A stretch of 64,000 nt of DNA from Yersinia frederiksenii ATCC 33641. GTDB lineage: Bacteria > Pseudomonadota > Gammaproteobacteria > Enterobacterales > Enterobacteriaceae. The notes under the pieces are model-generated. The model saw nothing but the letters and a program-made list of their open reading frames with translations, was not told the DNA's origin and did no database searches. Position numbers and translations under genes: made by a program. Where the stretch lies: assembly GCF_000754805.1 (NCBI RefSeq), contig NZ_KN150731.1, forward strand, positions 1 through 64,000. The letters run 5' to 3'. Positions 3,343-24,848 of the stretch are shown here, in pieces (the stretch's first letter is position 1; every line of letters begins with the position of its first letter).

Positions 3343-6261
3343 TTAGTCGTCATGGTCTTGATAGCTGCGGTTTGATTTGTTTTGTACCTGGCGGTTATAG
3401 GCCGCAAGTTGTCGCGCCACCTCGCGGGCAATATCCTGTGCATCATGCTGTGGTAGCGGGTAGATATTGATGATTGGCGCGGGATGGCCGCCAGTTTGTT
3501 TTTGCTGACCATTGTTAGTTGGCCCGGTGTGGTGATTGCGGTACTGCGCAGCCGGTAAACTATAGGGATGCAGCGGTGCGGCGGCGGCCTGATAGCCGCT
3601 AAATAGCATGGAGGCGGCAACTGCCATAGCGGCAGTATTCCGGCGGCCGGTGACCTGCGCCGGGCCGTTAATGATTTCCGGGCCATGCTCACCCACCACG
3701 CCAAATTTACCTAATGGGATGTAACCGCCGTTATCATATTCGCCGGTATATTTCGCGGCGATATCAGCGGCGCTATTGCCCTTGGGGGCTGGCTTCCATG
3801 TGATGCCGTAATTACCTGCGGCGGCAGCTACCGCCGGATTTGCTTGTGCCAGTTCGCGGGTTTTCTCGGAGCGCTGTTTCACTTCATCCAGCTTTTCCAA
3901 TACCCACTTAATGGATGAAATTAATAACTTAAGCGGTGTCATTGCTAAATCAATGCCATCAGCCAGGAACTTACCAAAGGCTTTACCGGCATCGGCGGCG
4001 CTGTTCAGGTCGGCAGTGGTCGATTGCACCGGCTCTAATAACTTTTTAAACCAGTTCCAGACGCTTTTAACCGCATCACCAATCCAGTCAAATACCGGCC
4101 CCAGCGGTTTAAGTGCCTCTTTGATTGGCGCGGCAGCTTGCATAAAACCATCCACCACACCACCGAGAAATGCCTTAATTGGCTGCCAATACTTGTAAAT
4201 CAGCAAGCCAGCGCCAACGATGGCCGCACCAATGAGGCCAATCGGGCTGATTAATATCCCGAACAAGCCACCGAGGGCAAAGCGCAGGAATTTAAGCGGG
4301 GATTTAGCCAGCCAGCTAACGGCATTGCCCAATATTTTAAAACCGCTGATACCGGATTTAACCGGTGAACGCACCACATTAACCAGACCATTACCCAGCC
4401 CTTTAAGGGTGGCAATTGCCGACTGACCGCCATTTTTAGACAGGGTGAGCAGTGAGCGACTAAAGTTGCCGATCTGTGTGGTGGTTATCGGGGTAGTGCT
4501 TGCCAGTCTGGACATACCAAACGACAAGCGCGGCAGCAAGCGAATGCCTAATACTGAGGTAGTAAAGCGCAGTAGTGCGAACGGCCCCAAAATACCGACA
4601 ACGGCAATCGCCAGTGCGCCAAATGCGGCGGTCGCAATAGCGATAGCGGTACCCACTTGCACAATGCCAAGACTGATTTTTGGGTGAGCCTTGAGGAACT
4701 CAGCCACACCATGCATAAATTCAGTAATACTTTTGGCTGTAGACCTGAGCCATGCGTCATTTTTTTCAAATAATTCAACGCTGACGTTTTCCAAGGCTGC
4801 GTGAATAATTGTCATGTCGCCTTTCAGGTTGTCCAGCTTGGTAGCAGCCACGCGAGCCGCCTCGCCGTCATACTCACCTGGCTGCCCGCGCATCTTATCG
4901 AGCGAGCCATTACCGGCAGCGTGCATCAACACACCAAAGCCGGTGACAGCATATTGCCCGGCTATGTCCTTAAAGATAGCCCCGCGCTCAACGTTACCCA
5001 TCTTGGCGGTTTTCTCATTGATATCTTTGAGAATATCCACCAGATCGCGCATGTTGCCGTTTTTATCGGCGGTCTTAACGCCTAAATCTTTAACGGTACT
5101 AGAGCCACCAATGCGGCTTAAGATGCTGCGCATGGTGGTACCAGCCTGGCTCCCCTGAATACCGGCGCTACCCAGCATGGCGGTGGAAGCGGCGACCGTT
5201 TCCAGACTCTGCCCGTATTCCCGGCCAACACCGCCGGAATACTTCATAGACTCACCCAGCATCGGGATATCCACGTTATTACGGGTAAACAGAGCGGTGA
5301 GCACGTCGGCCACCCGATCCATTTTCTCCGCCGGTATACCCATCGCGGTTTGAATATTGGAAGCAATATCCGCCGTAGTACCGAGATCAATATCGCCTGC
5401 GGCCGCCAGATTCAGCATACCCGGCATCGCCCCAACCACTTGTTTAGGGGTGTAGCCGGTACGACCAAGATAATATTGACCCTCGGCGACTTGCAGATCG
5501 GTAAATTTAGAAGAGAGAGGCAAGGTGCGCGCCTGATGGCGCATAGCTTGCATTTCAGGCGAGTTTTTATCTTGAATGCGGGTTACTGCCTGAGTGCCGC
5601 TCATCATGGCGTCAAATTCATAACCGACATGCAAGGCGTTCTCAATCCCGCGCCCCATCGCGCGACCAGTGGATAGCGAGGTGTAACCCAATCCGGCGGC
5701 AATGGCTTTGCGCTGATTGCTGCTATCAAAGCGGTTACGGGCGGCACTGAGGCGCTGTTGCTGTTGGGCTTGCTGTTCTAACCTGCGCTGCTGTGCGGTC
5801 AGTGCGGCGGTGGTGCTGGTGATATTAGCCTTAAGGGATCGTTGAGCCTGACCTAATCGGTTAGTGGCAATGCCGCTGCTTTGTAATGCGGTGCGTTGGG
5901 TATGTAACGCAATACGTAAATCATTGTATTTTTGCTTAAGCCTGGCGGCTTCTTCACTGGCGCGCTTAAACTCTCTAGCCTGTTTAGCTGTGGGGGAGGC
6001 ACTGTTTTTTAACTCGGTGGCAAGCTGGCGTGCTTTATCGCGGGCGGCGGCCAGCGCCTGAGCGGCACCATTGACCGCCACTTTATTCTTGCGAAAGCCC
6101 TCAATTTTAGCCGCCTGGCTATTGAGTTGTTTAAGTTCTTCTTTGGAGTTTTTAATAGATGCGGCCAGCATCTTATTGCTGGCCAACATAGATTTAAATG
6201 GCTTGGTGACTTTATCTATGGCACTTAAAGAAACCTGTAAGCGGAGGTTCTTATCACTCAT
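3343..6261 (-). CDS. T: Tail tape measure protein gpT
   Basis: 972 residues, the longest gene of the prophage (P2 gpT is 815). The N-terminal 200 residues are rich in Lys, Gln and Ala with heptad-like runs, expected to form a coiled coil. The middle has hydrophobic glycine-rich stretches near residues 530-570 and 660-690, as in tape measure proteins that insert in the membrane. A Tail_P2_I/TP901-type core around residues 200-400 contains GIQGSQAGTTMRS. It sets tail length and is threaded through the tube. The ATG at 6261 overlaps the end of the E' frame; a GTG three bases upstream is a less likely start. Confidence 0.93.
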   Translation of the reverse strand: MSDKNLRLQVSLSAIDKVTKPFKSMLASNKMLAASIKNSKEELKQLNSQAAKIEGFRKNKVAVNGAAQALAAARDKARQLATELKNSASPTAKQAREFKRASEEAARLKQKYNDLRIALHTQRTALQSSGIATNRLGQAQRSLKANITSTTAALTAQQRRLEQQAQQQQRLSAARNRFDSSNQRKAIAAGLGYTSLSTGRAMGRGIENALHVGYEFDAMMSGTQAVTRIQDKNSPEMQAMRHQARTLPLSSKFTDLQVAEGQYYLGRTGYTPKQVVGAMPGMLNLAAAGDIDLGTTADIASNIQTAMGIPAEKMDRVADVLTALFTRNNVDIPMLGESMKYSGGVGREYGQSLETVAASTAMLGSAGIQGSQAGTTMRSILSRIGGSSTVKDLGVKTADKNGNMRDLVDILKDINEKTAKMGNVERGAIFKDIAGQYAVTGFGVLMHAAGNGSLDKMRGQPGEYDGEAARVAATKLDNLKGDMTIIHAALENVSVELFEKNDAWLRSTAKSITEFMHGVAEFLKAHPKISLGIVQVGTAIAIATAAFGALAIAVVGILGPFALLRFTTSVLGIRLLPRLSFGMSRLASTTPITTTQIGNFSRSLLTLSKNGGQSAIATLKGLGNGLVNVVRSPVKSGISGFKILGNAVSWLAKSPLKFLRFALGGLFGILISPIGLIGAAIVGAGLLIYKYWQPIKAFLGGVVDGFMQAAAPIKEALKPLGPVFDWIGDAVKSVWNWFKKLLEPVQSTTADLNSAADAGKAFGKFLADGIDLAMTPLKLLISSIKWVLEKLDEVKQRSEKTRELAQANPAVAAAAGNYGITWKPAPKGNSAADIAAKYTGEYDNGGYIPLGKFGVVGEHGPEIINGPAQVTGRRNTAAMAVAASMLFSGYQAAAAPLHPYSLPAAQYRNHHTGPTNNGQQKQTGGHPAPIINIYPLPQHDAQDIAREVARQLAAYNRQVQNKSNRSYQDHDD

Positions 6262-18715: not shown

Positions 18716-20479
18716 ATGGAAATCTCTTCTATCAATGCCGATTTAGATCCCCGCCGTCAAGCCATGTATCTGTATTGGCAAGGGCTGCGCATCGCCCGAA
18801 TTGCGGAAATGATCGGTGAGAAAGCGGTCACGGTACACAGTTGGAAGCGCCGCGACAAGTGGGACGCTTACGGGCCGCTGGATCAGATGCAACTGACCAC
18901 GGCGGCGGAATATTGCCGCCTGATAATGAAGCCTGTCAAGGAAGCCAAAGACTACAAAGAGATTGATTTGCTGGGCCGACAGGCTGAGCGTCACGCCCGC
19001 ATTGGTAAATACAATGATGGTGGTAACGAGGCCGTCCTTAATCCCAATATTGAAAACCGCAACAGTGGCACGCGTAAAGCCGCGCAAAAAAATGTATTCA
19101 GCGAGGCGCAGATTGCCAAACTGAAAGATATTTTCAATGAATCTATGTTCGGTTATCAGCGCAACTGGTATGAAGCTGGTTTGTCACCTGATTTTCGTAT
19201 CCGTAATTTGCTCAAATCCCGCCAGATAGGAGCAACCTACTTTTTCTCATGGGAAGCTCTGTTGGATGCGCTCGACACCGGCCGCAACCAAATGTTTGTT
19301 TCGGCCTCCAAAGCGCAGGCGCACCAGTTCAAAAACTATATTGTTGCCGCGGCGCGCCAGGTGGATGTTGATTTGCGCGGTGAGGTAATTATTTTACCCA
19401 ATGGCGCGGAAATGCACTTTCTCGGCACCAATGCCAGCACCGCGCAGGGCCGTCCCGGCAATCTTTATCTGGATGAATATTTTTGGATCCCCGGCTTTCA
19501 GAAGCTGCGCCGCGCTGCATCGGGCATGGCCTCGCAAAAAAGATACCGCTCCACCTATTTTTCTACGCCATCCAGCACGTCACATGAGGCTTACCCGTTC
19601 TGGGCTGGCACCTTATTTAACAAGGGAAAGGCTAAAGATAAGCGCATTGAAATTGACGTCAGTTACCCACGGCTGGCCGCTGGACGGTTGTGTGAGGATA
19701 AGCAGTACCGCCAGATTGTCACCATTGAAGATGCCCTGAAAGGGGGTTGTGACCTGTTTGATATTGATGAATTACGCAATGAAAACAGTGATGAAGATTT
19801 TGAAAACCTGTTTATGTGCGGCTTTATTGACGATAACGCCTCCACCTTCAAGCTGGCCGAAATGCAGCGTTGCATGGTGGATAGCTGGGAAAAATGGTCA
19901 GACGTTAAATTACTGGCACTGCGCCCGTTTGGTGACCGGCCGGTGTGGATTGGTTACGACCCGGCCAGCACCGGCGACAGTGCCGGTTGTGCCGTCATAG
20001 CCCCGCCAGTGGTGGCGGGCGGTAAATTCAGGGTGTTAGAGCGCCACCAGTGGAAAGGCATGGATTTTGCTGACCAGGCCAGCAATATCAAAAAGATCAC
20101 CGAGCGCTATAACGTCACTTACATCGGTATTGATGATACCGGGCTGGGCCGTTCCGTTACGCAATTAGTGCGGCAATTCTTCCCGGCAGTTAACGCCATT
20201 CACTACAGCTTAGAAATGAAAGCCGACCTGATTTATAAAGCAAAAAATATCATTCAAGGCGGCCGCCTGGAGTTTGACGCGGGCTGCATTGATATCGCCA
20301 CTGCGTTTATGTCTATCCGTAAAACCATGACCGCCAGCGGCCGCAACGCCACCTTTGTGACTGACCGCTCCAAAGACGTCAGTCACGGTGATGTGGCGTG
20401 GGCCATTATGCACGCCTTATTCCATGAGCCTCTTGAAGGCATTAACAGCAATAACACCAGTGTGATGGAGATCTATTAA
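18716..20479 (+). CDS. P: Terminase large subunit gpP (ATPase/nuclease)
   Basis: 587 residues (P2 P 590). An N-terminal helix-turn-helix (residues 15-45, ending HSWKRRDKW) precedes the ATPase with a Walker A-like LKSRQIGAT near residue 165, Walker B LYLDEYFW near 250 and the coupling motif FSTPSS near 283. A C-terminal RNase-H-like nuclease has YDPAST near 415 and YIGIDDTGLG near 465. It packages DNA and, with gpM, cuts cos. Its TAA overlaps the ATG of the next gene by one base. A reduced paralogue of its ATPase domain follows directly. Confidence 0.96.
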   Translation: MEISSINADLDPRRQAMYLYWQGLRIARIAEMIGEKAVTVHSWKRRDKWDAYGPLDQMQLTTAAEYCRLIMKPVKEAKDYKEIDLLGRQAERHARIGKYNDGGNEAVLNPNIENRNSGTRKAAQKNVFSEAQIAKLKDIFNESMFGYQRNWYEAGLSPDFRIRNLLKSRQIGATYFFSWEALLDALDTGRNQMFVSASKAQAHQFKNYIVAAARQVDVDLRGEVIILPNGAEMHFLGTNASTAQGRPGNLYLDEYFWIPGFQKLRRAASGMASQKRYRSTYFSTPSSTSHEAYPFWAGTLFNKGKAKDKRIEIDVSYPRLAAGRLCEDKQYRQIVTIEDALKGGCDLFDIDELRNENSDEDFENLFMCGFIDDNASTFKLAEMQRCMVDSWEKWSDVKLLALRPFGDRPVWIGYDPASTGDSAGCAVIAPPVVAGGKFRVLERHQWKGMDFADQASNIKKITERYNVTYIGIDDTGLGRSVTQLVRQFFPAVNAIHYSLEMKADLIYKAKNIIQGGRLEFDAGCIDIATAFMSIRKTMTASGRNATFVTDRSKDVSHGDVAWAIMHALFHEPLEGINSNNTSVMEIY

Positions 20480-21204
20480 TGAAATATGCTTGTTTTGATG
20501 AAACTAATACTGAGCACCTAAAATACTGGATGCATATGTGGGCCTTTAATCATCAGCGCGAATGGTATAAGGCTGGCATTGATAATCGCACACGGAATAT
20601 CACTAAAACTCGGCTGGCGGGGGCGGATCTGTTCTTTGCTCTTGAGGGATTGATTGATGCCCTGGAGACTGGCCGTGACCAAATCTATTTTAGCGCAGGG
20701 GAAGAGACTGAGAGTGCAGCGTGGCAATATATCCTTACCTGGATGGCTGTAGGTAAACTTGCCGTGACAGATTCTTGTAGGGATGAGTTCAATGAAGTGA
20801 ACTTTATACGCTTGAATAACGGTGCGCAGATCAGCTTTCTTAATGAAAAATCACTTGCTGCGGGATATTCCGGCAATGTCTATGTGAGTGAATACGCCTG
20901 GGCGGATAATCCAGACAGATTATTAAAAGTGGCCGATGGTATATCCATGCATAAGCGCCACCGCCGCACGTACTATACGACGCCATCCCCTAGCGTCGCT
21001 GCGTTTACACTTTGGCAACAAGCGCTAGAGAACGATCGCCAATGGAGCCAAATTGTCACCATTGAAGATATCGCCGGTAACGGATGCTTATACAGCCCGG
21101 AAGATATTGTCAGACTCAGGGGAGAAATGAGCGAACTCGAATTTGCCATGCTTTACATGTGCCAATGGCCGACGCGGGCAGTTAATCAAGGGGCCGCACT
21201 ATGA
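20479..21204 (+). CDS. Truncated, Walker-defective paralogue of the gpP ATPase domain
   Basis: 241 residues that align along their whole length with residues ~135-370 of gpP: QREWYKAG against QRNWYEAG, LIDALETGRDQIYFSA against LLDALDTGRNQMFVSA, QIVTIED in both, LYMCQW against LFMCGF. The N-terminal helix-turn-helix and C-terminal nuclease are missing. Walker A KSRQIGAT has become KTRLAGAD and Walker B YLDEY has become YVSEY, so ATP hydrolysis is unlikely; the TTPSP coupling motif survives. It overlaps P by one base and Q by four (ATGA), so it is translated with them. P2 has no gene here. Possible roles (inference): terminase assembly partner, packaging regulator, or dominant-negative decoy against other phages. 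Confidence 0.85.
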   Translation: MKYACFDETNTEHLKYWMHMWAFNHQREWYKAGIDNRTRNITKTRLAGADLFFALEGLIDALETGRDQIYFSAGEETESAAWQYILTWMAVGKLAVTDSCRDEFNEVNFIRLNNGAQISFLNEKSLAAGYSGNVYVSEYAWADNPDRLLKVADGISMHKRHRRTYYTTPSPSVAAFTLWQQALENDRQWSQIVTIEDIAGNGCLYSPEDIVRLRGEMSELEFAMLYMCQWPTRAVNQGAAL

Positions 21205-22232
21205 GTCGTAAACAGCGAAATAAACGTAATACTGCGGCAATGGTAAAAAGTACCGCACCACAAGCCGAAGCGTTTACTTTTGACGACCCGATCCCGATGA
21301 TGGACAGGCGCGATATTCTGGATTATCTGGAATGTGCGGTTATGGATCGTTGGTATGAGCCACCGGTGTCCTTTAATGGGCTGGCGAAATCCTTTCGCGC
21401 GGCGGTACATCATAGCTCACCTATCTACATGAAACGTAATGTATTGGTTAGCTTGTTTGAGCCGCACCGGCTGCTATCCAAGCAGGATTTTAGCCGTTAT
21501 GCGCTGGATTTTTTGGTGTTCGCCAACTCATTTTTAGAGGCCCGTTATAACCGGTTGGGCGGCATAATGAAACTGGTACCCAGCCCAGCCAAATACACCC
21601 GCCGGGGGGTGGAAACGGACACATATTGGTATGTCTCATCCTATGCGAACCCGCACCCGTTTGAAGCCAATAGCGTTTTTCATCTGCTCGACCCGGATAT
21701 TAATCAGGAGATCTACGGCGTTCCTGAATATCTCGCCTCGTTAAACTCGACCTGGCTCAATGAAGCCGCGACACTATTTCGCCGTAAATACTATCTCAAT
21801 GGCAGTCACGCCGGATTTATCCTGTATATGAATGATGCCGCCCATAAGCAGGAGGATATCGACGCCTTACGCAAGGCATTGAAAGAGTCCAAAGGGCCGG
21901 GCAACTTCCGCAATTTGTTTATGTATGCCCCAGCGGGTAAAAAGGACGGTATCCAAGTGATCCCGCTGGCAGAAGTGGCCGCCAAAGATGAATTTATGAA
22001 CATTAAGAACACCACTCGCGACGATCAGCTTGCTATGCAGCGAGTGCCGCCTCAATTGATGGGGATCCTACCGAATAATACCGGCGGTTTTGGTGATGTG
22101 GAAAAAGCCGCGCGGGTATTTGCCATCAATGAATTAGCACCATTACAAGAACGGCTAATGGAATTAAATAATTGGGTGGGAGAGGAAGTTATCAGATTTA
22201 AACCTTATGAGTTACTCGCCAAACAAGAATAA
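21201..22232 (+). CDS. Q: Portal protein gpQ
   Basis: 343 residues (P2 Q 344). The family core includes DPDINQEIYGVPEYL near residue 165-180 and the QRVPPQLMGILPNNTGGFGD block near residue 275-295. Twelve subunits form the channel through which gpP pumps DNA. It is coupled by ATGA to the terminase paralogue rather than directly to P as in P2. A terminator follows 20 bases after the stop. Confidence 0.95.
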   Translation: MSRKQRNKRNTAAMVKSTAPQAEAFTFDDPIPMMDRRDILDYLECAVMDRWYEPPVSFNGLAKSFRAAVHHSSPIYMKRNVLVSLFEPHRLLSKQDFSRYALDFLVFANSFLEARYNRLGGIMKLVPSPAKYTRRGVETDTYWYVSSYANPHPFEANSVFHLLDPDINQEIYGVPEYLASLNSTWLNEAATLFRRKYYLNGSHAGFILYMNDAAHKQEDIDALRKALKESKGPGNFRNLFMYAPAGKKDGIQVIPLAEVAAKDEFMNIKNTTRDDQLAMQRVPPQLMGILPNNTGGFGDVEKAARVFAINELAPLQERLMELNNWVGEEVIRFKPYELLAKQE

Positions 22233-23093: not shown

Positions 23094-23960
23094 ATGCTAT
23101 ATAAATTCTTCTCTTTAAATGATAACTCTCTATCCTCCTTATATAATTCTTCCCTCTGGTTCTCAAAGGTCTGTGATTTCAATGATCCATTTGAGGGACA
23201 GGTTAAAATAATAGATGGAGAGCTGACAGATTCTAATATGGTTAAATTGATTAAAGTTATGAATTCATCAGGAGGGTTGAATAGGTTTCTGAATTTAAAA
23301 AACTCTAATGAGACATTAGATGCACTCACAGAAATAATGATACTGAATAAAGGTGAAATACTTAAGAATGAAATTCTTAGGATAGCTAGGCATGCCTTTA
23401 ATACTGTTGTTGAGCGCTACACAAATGGCGGAGCTTGCTGCTTTGTTTCTGATGGAAATCAATCTAACGACTTGCTAAGCCCTTTAACAAGTAGGCTTAT
23501 GTGGGGACATTACGGTAATGGCCTTCGTGGGTTTGCATTGAAATTTAGAGATGACATTTTCTGTGATGTAAATAGTGAACTAAAAAAAGAAATGATTTCG
23601 GGGCCATATGAAATAGATTATATAAATGATTATCCGGTTGTTAATTTAGTTGAGTTATCTAACCAGCTTTATGTCGAAAAAAATGAACTTAAGGTGTTTA
23701 AACATATTGGTAAGTTAACTTCATCTAAAAATAAAGACTGGGAGTATGAGCAAGAAGTTAGATATATTTCAATGGAGGGGAACAGGCTTTTCAAGTACAA
23801 CCCTGAGCATATTGAATTACTTTGTATTGGTGAAAAAATGCCTAATTATCAAGTTAAGTGTTTATTATCAATTGCAAAGGAATTAGGAATAAAGAAAATT
23901 TGCAGAACAAAACTATCAAATGATAGTTATACAATAGGGTTAAATTACGAAGTTTATTAG
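23094..23960 (+). CDS. DUF2971 family protein
   Basis: 288 residues. The start MLYKFFSLNDNSLSSLYNSSLWFSKV and FNDPFEG near residue 36 are hallmarks of DUF2971; RLMWGHYGNGLRGFALKF (near 140) and WEYEQEVRYI (near 220) are also typical. The function of this family is not established. Base composition is clearly more AT-rich than the phage genes around it, a sign of separate origin. It sits in the slot where P2 carries tin/old and faces an Abi-alpha gene, so a defence role is a reasonable guess from context. Confidence 0.8.
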   Translation: MLYKFFSLNDNSLSSLYNSSLWFSKVCDFNDPFEGQVKIIDGELTDSNMVKLIKVMNSSGGLNRFLNLKNSNETLDALTEIMILNKGEILKNEILRIARHAFNTVVERYTNGGACCFVSDGNQSNDLLSPLTSRLMWGHYGNGLRGFALKFRDDIFCDVNSELKKEMISGPYEIDYINDYPVVNLVELSNQLYVEKNELKVFKHIGKLTSSKNKDWEYEQEVRYISMEGNRLFKYNPEHIELLCIGEKMPNYQVKCLLSIAKELGIKKICRTKLSNDSYTIGLNYEVY

Positions 23961-24095: not shown

Positions 24096-24815
24096 TCAAC
24101 TATCTGTAGATGGAATACAGGCTGAAACAAACAACTTGCCAAAATCAGTAAGGTGAATTTCACTAAAACAACGAATACCGGTCTGAACTCCATTCACAAA
24201 AATTGGATCTTGTTTTGTAACGGGCCATGTTACTAAAGAGAGTGATTCAAGATGAGAATAATATATCCCCATAGATTCCGGAGATAATAAATCGTCTAAC
24301 GGTATAGTCGAACTTTCAATTACTCTATTCTCAAGCCTATTTTCTTGTAAATTTAGATCCTGTGTATATACCTGATGAAAAGGTTCAACATCCAATTTAA
24401 GAAGCAACAAAGCCTCATCGCTGGTCAATTGTTTAATTATTTGCACAAATGATGGATGAACAAGCTCTACATACTTTTGGTCGGCAGATTTAAATAATAC
24501 CTCTTTGAATAAATCCCATAGAGGACTAGATTCTTTTATAAAACGCATAGATTCAATGGCTGGACCAGAAATCTCAGGAGCTACTTCGATTCTTCGAGAT
24601 TCAGGAATGCGTACATTCATTTCACGTAATAAACGTTCCAGACGATCCTGAAAGGTTGCAGCAATCTGTAATGGTGCAAGCAAAAGTCGAGCTGTTTTGA
24701 CTAAATCCGCGCCAACCTTACCCAGTTCTTTAAGTCCTGGAGAAAGCGCATCGTTGTATGTATTCTCAACAAGTTTAGAGTCAATAACGCTATTAATAAT
24801 CTTGCTATTATCCAT
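24096..24815 (-). CDS. Abi-alpha (DUF4393) family protein, copy 1
   Basis: 239 residues from ATG at 24815, which has GAGAGG upstream; an upstream start adding 11 residues is weaker. The Abi_alpha/DUF4393 pattern is visible: an N-terminal helix-rich segment, ISGPAIESMRFI near residue 85, and the core HPSFVQIIKQLTSDEALLL near 123-141. The product of 31851-32654 carries nearly the same core in the same prophage. The family is annotated as abortive infection alpha from lactococcal phage resistance. It converges on the DUF2971 gene, and its AT-rich composition suggests later acquisition. Confidence 0.8.
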   Translation of the reverse strand: MDNSKIINSVIDSKLVENTYNDALSPGLKELGKVGADLVKTARLLLAPLQIAATFQDRLERLLREMNVRIPESRRIEVAPEISGPAIESMRFIKESSPLWDLFKEVLFKSADQKYVELVHPSFVQIIKQLTSDEALLLLKLDVEPFHQVYTQDLNLQENRLENRVIESSTIPLDDLLSPESMGIYYSHLESLSLVTWPVTKQDPIFVNGVQTGIRCFSEIHLTDFGKLFVSACIPSTDS

Positions 24816-24848
24816 TTGTTGCCTCTCAATTGTTAACAAAATGTTCAC

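Follow-up and report, generated by a model that had tools for sequence, protein, structure and literature searches.

A W-family terminase ATPase-domain gene with an altered ATP site between the P and Q genes of a P2-like prophage in Yersinia frederiksenii

The window analysed in this study is a 64,000-nucleotide stretch of the Yersinia frederiksenii ATCC 33641 genome (contig NZ_KN150731.1, positions 1 to 64,000), and it carries a P2-like prophage. Between the genes for a full-length gpP-like large terminase and a gpQ-like portal protein lies an open reading frame, here called W, that encodes a single terminase ATPase domain of 241 amino acids and overlaps its two neighbours by one and four bases, respectively (Table 1). 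This arrangement was recognized in a preliminary description of the DNA, together with two altered ATP-site motifs, Walker A (KSRQIGAT in gpP, KTRLAGAD in W) and Walker B (LDEY in gpP, VSEY in W). Both the arrangement and the motif changes were confirmed. The terminase ATPase fold was found for W (VIA-align), and its ATPase domain is homologous to that of the gpP encoded beside it. However, W is this domain alone, without the helix-turn-helix and nuclease domains of gpP. In relatives that lack W, a single ATGA seam joins P and Q.

Existing profile collections recognize W only in general terms. Its best PHROG match is phrog_3746 (terminase large subunit), which is matched by 50 of the 50 members of our alignment A4 (best E value 6.2e-124). 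This profile cannot distinguish W from P, as the P protein of the window matches it as well. PADLOC yielded no match for W, NCBIfam yielded none for the W proteins of the window or of coliphage 186, and a sequence search of solved structures with W returned no terminase.

Table 1. Features of the P-W-Q region, in positions of the window.
Feature	Position	Strand	Basis or remark
gpP-like large terminase (Terminase_5 + 6N + 6C; homologue of P2 P and 186 orf12)	18716..20479	+	profile matches
Walker A of gpP, KSRQIGAT, residues 167-174	19214..19237	+	K and T in 38/38 P rows
Walker B Asp-Glu of gpP, residues 253-254	19472..19477	+	D and E in 38/38 P rows
W-family short terminase ATPase-domain gene, 241 aa	20479..21204	+	
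Altered Walker A of W, KTRLAGAD, residues 43-50	20605..20628	+	Asp50 for Thr
Altered Walker B of W, NVYVSE, residues 133-138	20875..20892	+	Ser137 for Asp, Glu138 retained
P/W seam ATGA	20479..20482	+	1-base overlap of P stop with W start
W/Q seam ATGA	21201..21204	+	4-base overlap of Q start with W stop
gpQ-like portal protein	21201..22232	+	

A gene of this kind has already been named in phage 186. The record of that phage annotates the slot between Orf12 (the P2 P homologue) and Orf2 (the P2 Q homologue) as 'W protein, similar to Orf12', and gp2 of phage PSP3, in the same slot, carries the note 'similar to 186 W'. The slot and its overlaps are common to 186, PSP3, the Yersinia phages vB_YenM_201.16 and vB_YenM_56.17 (in which the gene is annotated only as a terminase ATPase subunit), and the window. 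The 186 record gives W a letter name and its P and Q homologues Orf numbers, and the label W also spans the portal ORF. Presumably, letter names in 186 denote genes found by amber mutants, and W may therefore be essential in that phage.

The window gene shares with this family its place between homologues of P and Q, with start and stop codons that overlap, its restriction to an ATPase domain (225-254 amino acids in the family, with neither a helix-turn-helix nor a nuclease), and its grouping with W apart from gpP in the tree described below. It has the terminase ATPase fold of TerL and gpP proteins, but neither their nuclease domain nor their combination of a Walker A Thr and a Walker B Asp. 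The same two residues set it apart from the 186-type subclade (Eganvirus), which retains both of them where the window protein has D50 and S137. Specifically, 186 W (AAC34147.1) and PSP3 gp2 resemble the window protein in slot, overlaps, domain content, and side of the W/P branch, whereas 186-type proteins mostly lack an Arg before strand 4 that the window protein carries, and those in alignment A4 are 32-36% identical to it. The W proteins of phages 201.16 and 56.17 also lie between P and Q and, like that of the window, are D-type, a term used here for an Asp in Walker A combined with a residue other than Asp in Walker B. They differ by an otherwise unchanged Walker A (KSRQIGAD), a Gly in Walker B, and an identity to the window protein of 39%. 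Its sequence places the window gene in the W family, as a D-type. Genes of this kind are known from 186, and the window holds a variant whose ATP site is rebuilt and which can be swapped. Searches of one open-licence literature library, in which subscription papers are mostly missing, turned up no description of what 186 W does and no publication on such a terminase paralogue.

W and gpP were compared in a tree built from 34 W and 44 P representatives, with L099 (a P fragment containing Ns) and L110 (a wrecked prophage) excluded. W and all sampled P proteins fall on opposite sides of a single branch with 100/100 support. The split recurred in 200 of 200 bootstrap trees after two motif columns were masked and six long-branch P rows were also excluded. 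Four residues (T42, P145, T167, and W230) and a one-residue deletion are specific to W and present in all 34 representatives. Also, the SASKxQA block that is conserved in P is altered in both types of W, with the Lys kept in 1/34 representatives, the Gln in 0/34, the second Ser in 29%, and the last Ala in 76%. The window gene had previously been regarded as a degenerate copy of the prophage's own P. This hypothesis is rejected because W and P lie on the two sides of the 100/100 branch, and W is instead a separate family, the one named in 186.

The two altered residues of W change together. The Walker A Thr and the Walker B Asp are taken to be Mg ligands, and in gpP the Lys, Thr, Asp, and Glu of the two motifs are present in all 38 P rows. 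The motif alignment of W held 114 rows, near-copies included (101 distinct), and was reduced to 112 by dropping L099 and L110. Walker A Thr and Walker B Asp occur together in 39 of these rows (36 of the 186 type, plus L193-L195), and the other 73, including the window, combine a Walker A Asp with Ser (45), Gly (24), Pro (2), or Leu (2) in Walker B. Mixed states were found in none of the 112 W rows. The P-loop Lys is present in all 112 and the Walker B Glu in 108, the exceptions being three Asp in rows that retain the Thr and one Ala in L050.

Within four D-type clades, all 68 rows have Asp50. Three of these clades have a single Walker B residue throughout, and the fourth has Ser in 32 of its 34 rows. 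Entropy at Walker B is 0.000 in the window clade, 0.026 in the 201.16 clade, 0.066 in the L066 clade, and 0.167 in the L114 clade, compared with overall means of 0.311, 0.234, 0.240, and 0.645, respectively. The Walker A block has low entropy in the L066 and L114 clades and only moderately low entropy in the window and 201.16 clades, where 82 and 78 of 233 blocks are equally low. The alignment thus reveals a conserved, coupled loss of both putative Mg-ligand positions in the D-type. The best tree requires two changes for the D-type state, although a single origin, with the 24 D-type representatives held together, is not rejected (approximately unbiased test, p-AU 0.203). L111, L108, and L124 form long branches.

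Selection holds the gene, as judged from the ratio of nonsynonymous to synonymous substitution rates (dN/dS). With the NG86 method, at most eight members per clade, and only pairs with dS of 0.05-2, the median dN/dS of W is 0.151 in the window clade, 0.285 in the 201.16 clade, 0.162 in the 186 clade, 0.181 in the L193 group, 0.186 in the L066 clade, and 0.144 in the L114 clade. For P of the same loci, which covers all of these clades except the L193 group, the medians are 0.025 (window), 0.036 (201.16), 0.051 (186), 0.066 (L066), and 0.139 (L114). W is constrained. Of the five clades with both values, four show W evolving faster than P, and in the fifth, L114, the rates are about the same. Together with the Walker states, these ratios support the earlier suggestion that an ATPase domain that lost its metal ligands has been kept by selection. 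An expected tie of W expression to P and Q also found support. Among 110 measured W loci, all with an ATG start, P and W overlap by 1 nt in 73 and by 4 nt in 33 (106/110), and W and Q overlap by 4 nt in 106/110. These rows were preselected by an open frame of 220-275 codons with wrecks counted apart, our script took the start codon closest to the end of P, a rule that biases the count toward such overlaps, and L121 and L122 were dropped because they had no start within range.

The same junction gains, loses, and exchanges W cleanly at the ATGA seam, as comparisons of closely related phages indicate. Within one Yersinia phage genus, 201.16 and 56.17 carry W and 06.16-2 does not. Between the W-bearing phages and the W-less one, P proteins are 98.8-99.0% and Q proteins 97.4-97.7% identical. 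Phage 31.17 also lacks W. Similarly, the flanks of locus L108 (with W) and locus L104 (without W) are 97.2% and 98.5% identical in DNA and meet at ATGA, and the Q proteins of the two are identical over 280 amino acids. P of the window is 98.1% identical to P of the W-less Y. enterocolitica phage 42.18 (91% in DNA) and 97.8-98.6% identical to P of its W-bearing relatives. Loci L111 and L140 have P proteins that are 94% and Q proteins that are 93% identical but W proteins that are only 36% identical, and therefore the slot accepts different types of W. The preliminary view that the gene is locked between P and Q is contradicted by such near-identical phages that have no W or another type of it. 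The ten Yersinia phages of PMC9224151 were recovered from cultures treated with mitomycin and purified by single-plaque isolation, so W is not required for plaque formation in this phage group.

On a tree of 62 P representatives (16 with W), the presence of W requires 13 changes, compared with a mean of 14.2 for shuffled labels, and 117 of 500 shuffles were as low as 13. Near-copies were collapsed only within a label and W-bearing loci were sought through W, so this tree speaks to repeated gain and loss and not to frequency. Distances of W correlate with those of P (Spearman 0.441) and Q (0.455), and those of P with Q (0.862). Because none of 2000 permutations reached any of these values, W is linked to P and Q. 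In pairs that differ in the presence of W, Q is slightly more diverged than P (median -0.047 in 120 of 464 pairs, versus +0.004 in 160 of 1114 same-label pairs). We do not use this difference as evidence either way, since the mixed pairs are also more distant in P, Q is shortened in many loci, and the mixed pair L108 and L104 has the same Q over 280 amino acids.

Our contig scans used a few peptide patterns as queries and were not exhaustive. One scan of viral contigs yielded 25 loci, 24 with W, including one W that is 100% identical to that of the window, and further scans yielded 1, 7, 36, and 36 loci. One of the 36-locus scans included two loci in which only the 3' part of W remains, one match that stops at residue 159, and one match to residues 217-240 only, at a contig end. 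A viral-contig scan with the W of L108 as query found no relative. The genome_contigs scan (84,980 species) gave 19 loci, with W in three (L059, L060, and L066). A contig of Yersinia proxima encodes a gene of the same kind, and W is present in 3 of 25 genomes of the window's genus. Among 392 genomes sampled from the family, W-length frames occur in at least seven, with two wrecked (G378 and G434), and any P or W match at threshold in 117. In samples of 369 genomes from the class and 394 from the order (E values up to 1e-48, at most seven candidates scored per genome), W-length frames were confined to genomes of the host's own family. In E. coli, the 186-type W occurs in 8 and the L066-type in 17 of 5426 genomes, with one strain in both sets.

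At least ten named phages have a W match, namely 186, PSP3, EtG, Midge, SI22, SW9, BIS20, 201.16, 56.17, and 500465-1, the match being split into three pieces in the last. In all, 336 named-phage records match the W of the window, with the best 60 of the 336 listed, and most of these matches are taken to be P. Likewise, 71 plasmid records match one W query, all below 60% identity, with the best 20 of the 71 listed. The preliminary description had considered that W might prove to be a rare duplicate with disrupted frames in relatives. Rarity does hold in E. coli. Disrupted frames, encountered in L110, L112, L158, and L159, are not the rule. In L158 and L159 (both 4001-4270, + strand), W is cut to its 3' part, residues 152-241, and the P and Q frames are open. 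In the wrecked prophages L110 (3547-4610) and L112 (3238-5689), P and W are broken or fused into each other. The W of L193 (4001-4735, + strand) lies behind the portal gene in the order P-Q-W, and is the only family member so placed.

Several other features of these loci are recorded here. The window's genome contains a second P2-like P-Q pair, which lacks W (L116, 3759-6508, in G000:C1:4864500-4874000). Between the portal gene and a putative replication gene, the window carries two candidate anti-phage genes, one at 23094-23960 on the + strand (DUF2971/PADLOC PDC-S31, E value 3e-36) and one at 24096-24848 on the - strand (Abi_alpha/PDC-S47, E value 9e-29). Their position matches the cos-proximal defence hotspot of P2-like phages, which PMC9122126 places between gpA and gpQ. 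In some Yersinia phages, a 129-amino-acid gene annotated as an exonuclease lies directly 3' of the portal gene (L001 6801-7190, L002 6801-7190, and L202 3998-4387).

The best reading of these data, to which we assign close to an even chance, is that W may serve the packaging motor as an accessory subunit that is dispensable and non-catalytic. On the portal of the HK97 motor, the large terminase is present as five subunits (PMC10359639). For the D6E terminase, isolated ATPase domains are reported to be able to form pentamers, and an arginine that acts in trans from the loop before strand 4 serves the site of the neighbouring subunit (PMC5727402). An Arg in this loop is present in 38/38 P rows and in 34/34 W rows of the window, 201.16, and L114 types, which lost both metal-ligand positions (the count excluded the L193 group, L108, and L111). 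Topology suggests that this Arg is the finger. W of the window type keeps the Lys and Arg of the P-loop, the Glu of Walker B, and the Arg that precedes strand 4, and could therefore supply an arginine finger to an adjacent gpP while hydrolysing no ATP of its own. It would dock on the gpP ring or on the gpP-portal joint through an ATPase-ATPase surface, work there as a non-catalytic accessory subunit, and tune the start, pausing, or selectivity of packaging. Because some phages of the group work without W, such an accessory would pay only under some conditions. Most of the counted W types appear to be missing a portion of a shared active site, as would suit a partner in a mixed ring.

Several observations weigh against an accessory role. 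The Arg before strand 4 is not family-wide, being His in 34/34 L066-type rows and Ser or Asn in 32/36 186-type rows. P of the window's group bears no mark of W, as P of the W-less phage 42.18 is as close as those of W-bearing relatives, which is odd for an obligate partner. The distances of W track those of P and Q less well than P tracks Q, and, with the Lys and Gln of the SASKxQA block lost, W may differ from P in how it contacts DNA or ATP. Finally, W lies outside all P proteins in the trees, and it has been found only within the host's family, whereas P is found far more widely. For this reason the position of W may owe something to a long branch, which alone could place it there. A gpP that takes no visible notice of W is compatible with accessory, rival-directed, and decoy effects alike.

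An effect on rivals is a less likely alternative. W would then be a dominant-negative terminase fragment that enters and slows the rings of terminases from co-resident prophages, superinfecting phages, or satellites, with its own P being tolerant. On the P tree, loci with W cluster no more than shuffled labels do, W types are swapped over similar P and Q proteins (L111 and L140), W changes faster than P in four of five clades, and the window's genome holds the W-less pair L116, all of which would fit. However, no signature of tolerance is seen in P of the window's group, and P4 is able to use the W-bearing phage 186 as a helper. Satellite pressure is likewise not evident. Psu, a marker of P4-like satellites, was detected in 1/7 genomes with an intact W (G311, partial matches), 0/2 with a wrecked W, and 11/46 without W, a small sample of low power in which the W-less genomes were hand-picked from among the matches listed in the family sample. 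None of 14 control genomes gave a Psu match, nor did a search of the window's own genome alone. The earlier idea that W blocks P4-type satellites is thus left unsupported.

Distinctly less probable is a rewired but active enzyme, in which the Walker A Asp would replace the lost Walker B Asp in metal binding and D-type W would still hydrolyse ATP. This would explain why the two changes are coupled in 73/73 D-type rows, why Walker B can hold S, G, P, or L while the new Asp never varies, and why the Lys is kept in all rows and the Glu in 72/73. In contrast, putting an acid in place of the Walker A Thr should weaken phosphate binding, 33/34 representatives have lost the Lys and 34/34 the Gln of the SASKxQA block, and the Glu, too, is lost in one D-type row (L050). 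A decoy function is more doubtful still. Avs sensors read terminase and portal proteins (PMC12931631), and W, sharing the ATPase fold of the sensed terminase but having no nuclease and an altered ATP site, would tie up such a sensor (Avs/AVAST type) or fail to trigger it. However, a structural match is expected from the shared fold, and the intact P encoded next door should be sensed all the same. Least probable is a passenger cassette, tolerated rather than useful and spread by recombination next to cos (speculated for P2-like phages in PMC9122126), since toggling at the 4-base seam and dispensability for plaques in some phages would agree with it, but dN/dS well below 1 in 6/6 clades, invariance of Asp50 in four D-type clades, and open frames with ATG in the 110 preselected loci do not.

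As an extra gene that is swapped cleanly among phages, W probably steers the packaging machine or fools whatever recognizes it. A broader proposition is possible but rather unlikely, namely that enterobacterial P2-like phages use the junction of P and Q as an exchangeable site for half-dead terminase subunits. Such proteins would imitate the packaging engine, with an active site that was rebuilt in a set manner (Thr to Asp together with loss of the Walker B Asp) rather than simply decayed. They would either mix into the gpP ring as subunits that do not burn ATP or fool readers of the terminase fold, such as rival motors and Avs-type sensors. Viral packaging motors are generally regarded as rings made of one kind of subunit. 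A conserved paralogue that comes from the same operon and has a changed ATP site would imply that a classical phage group has a built-in regulator, a decoy, or a ring of mixed composition. This question can be tested directly with natural pairs that have and lack W (201.16 and 06.16-2; L108 and L104) and with the W-bearing laboratory phage 186.
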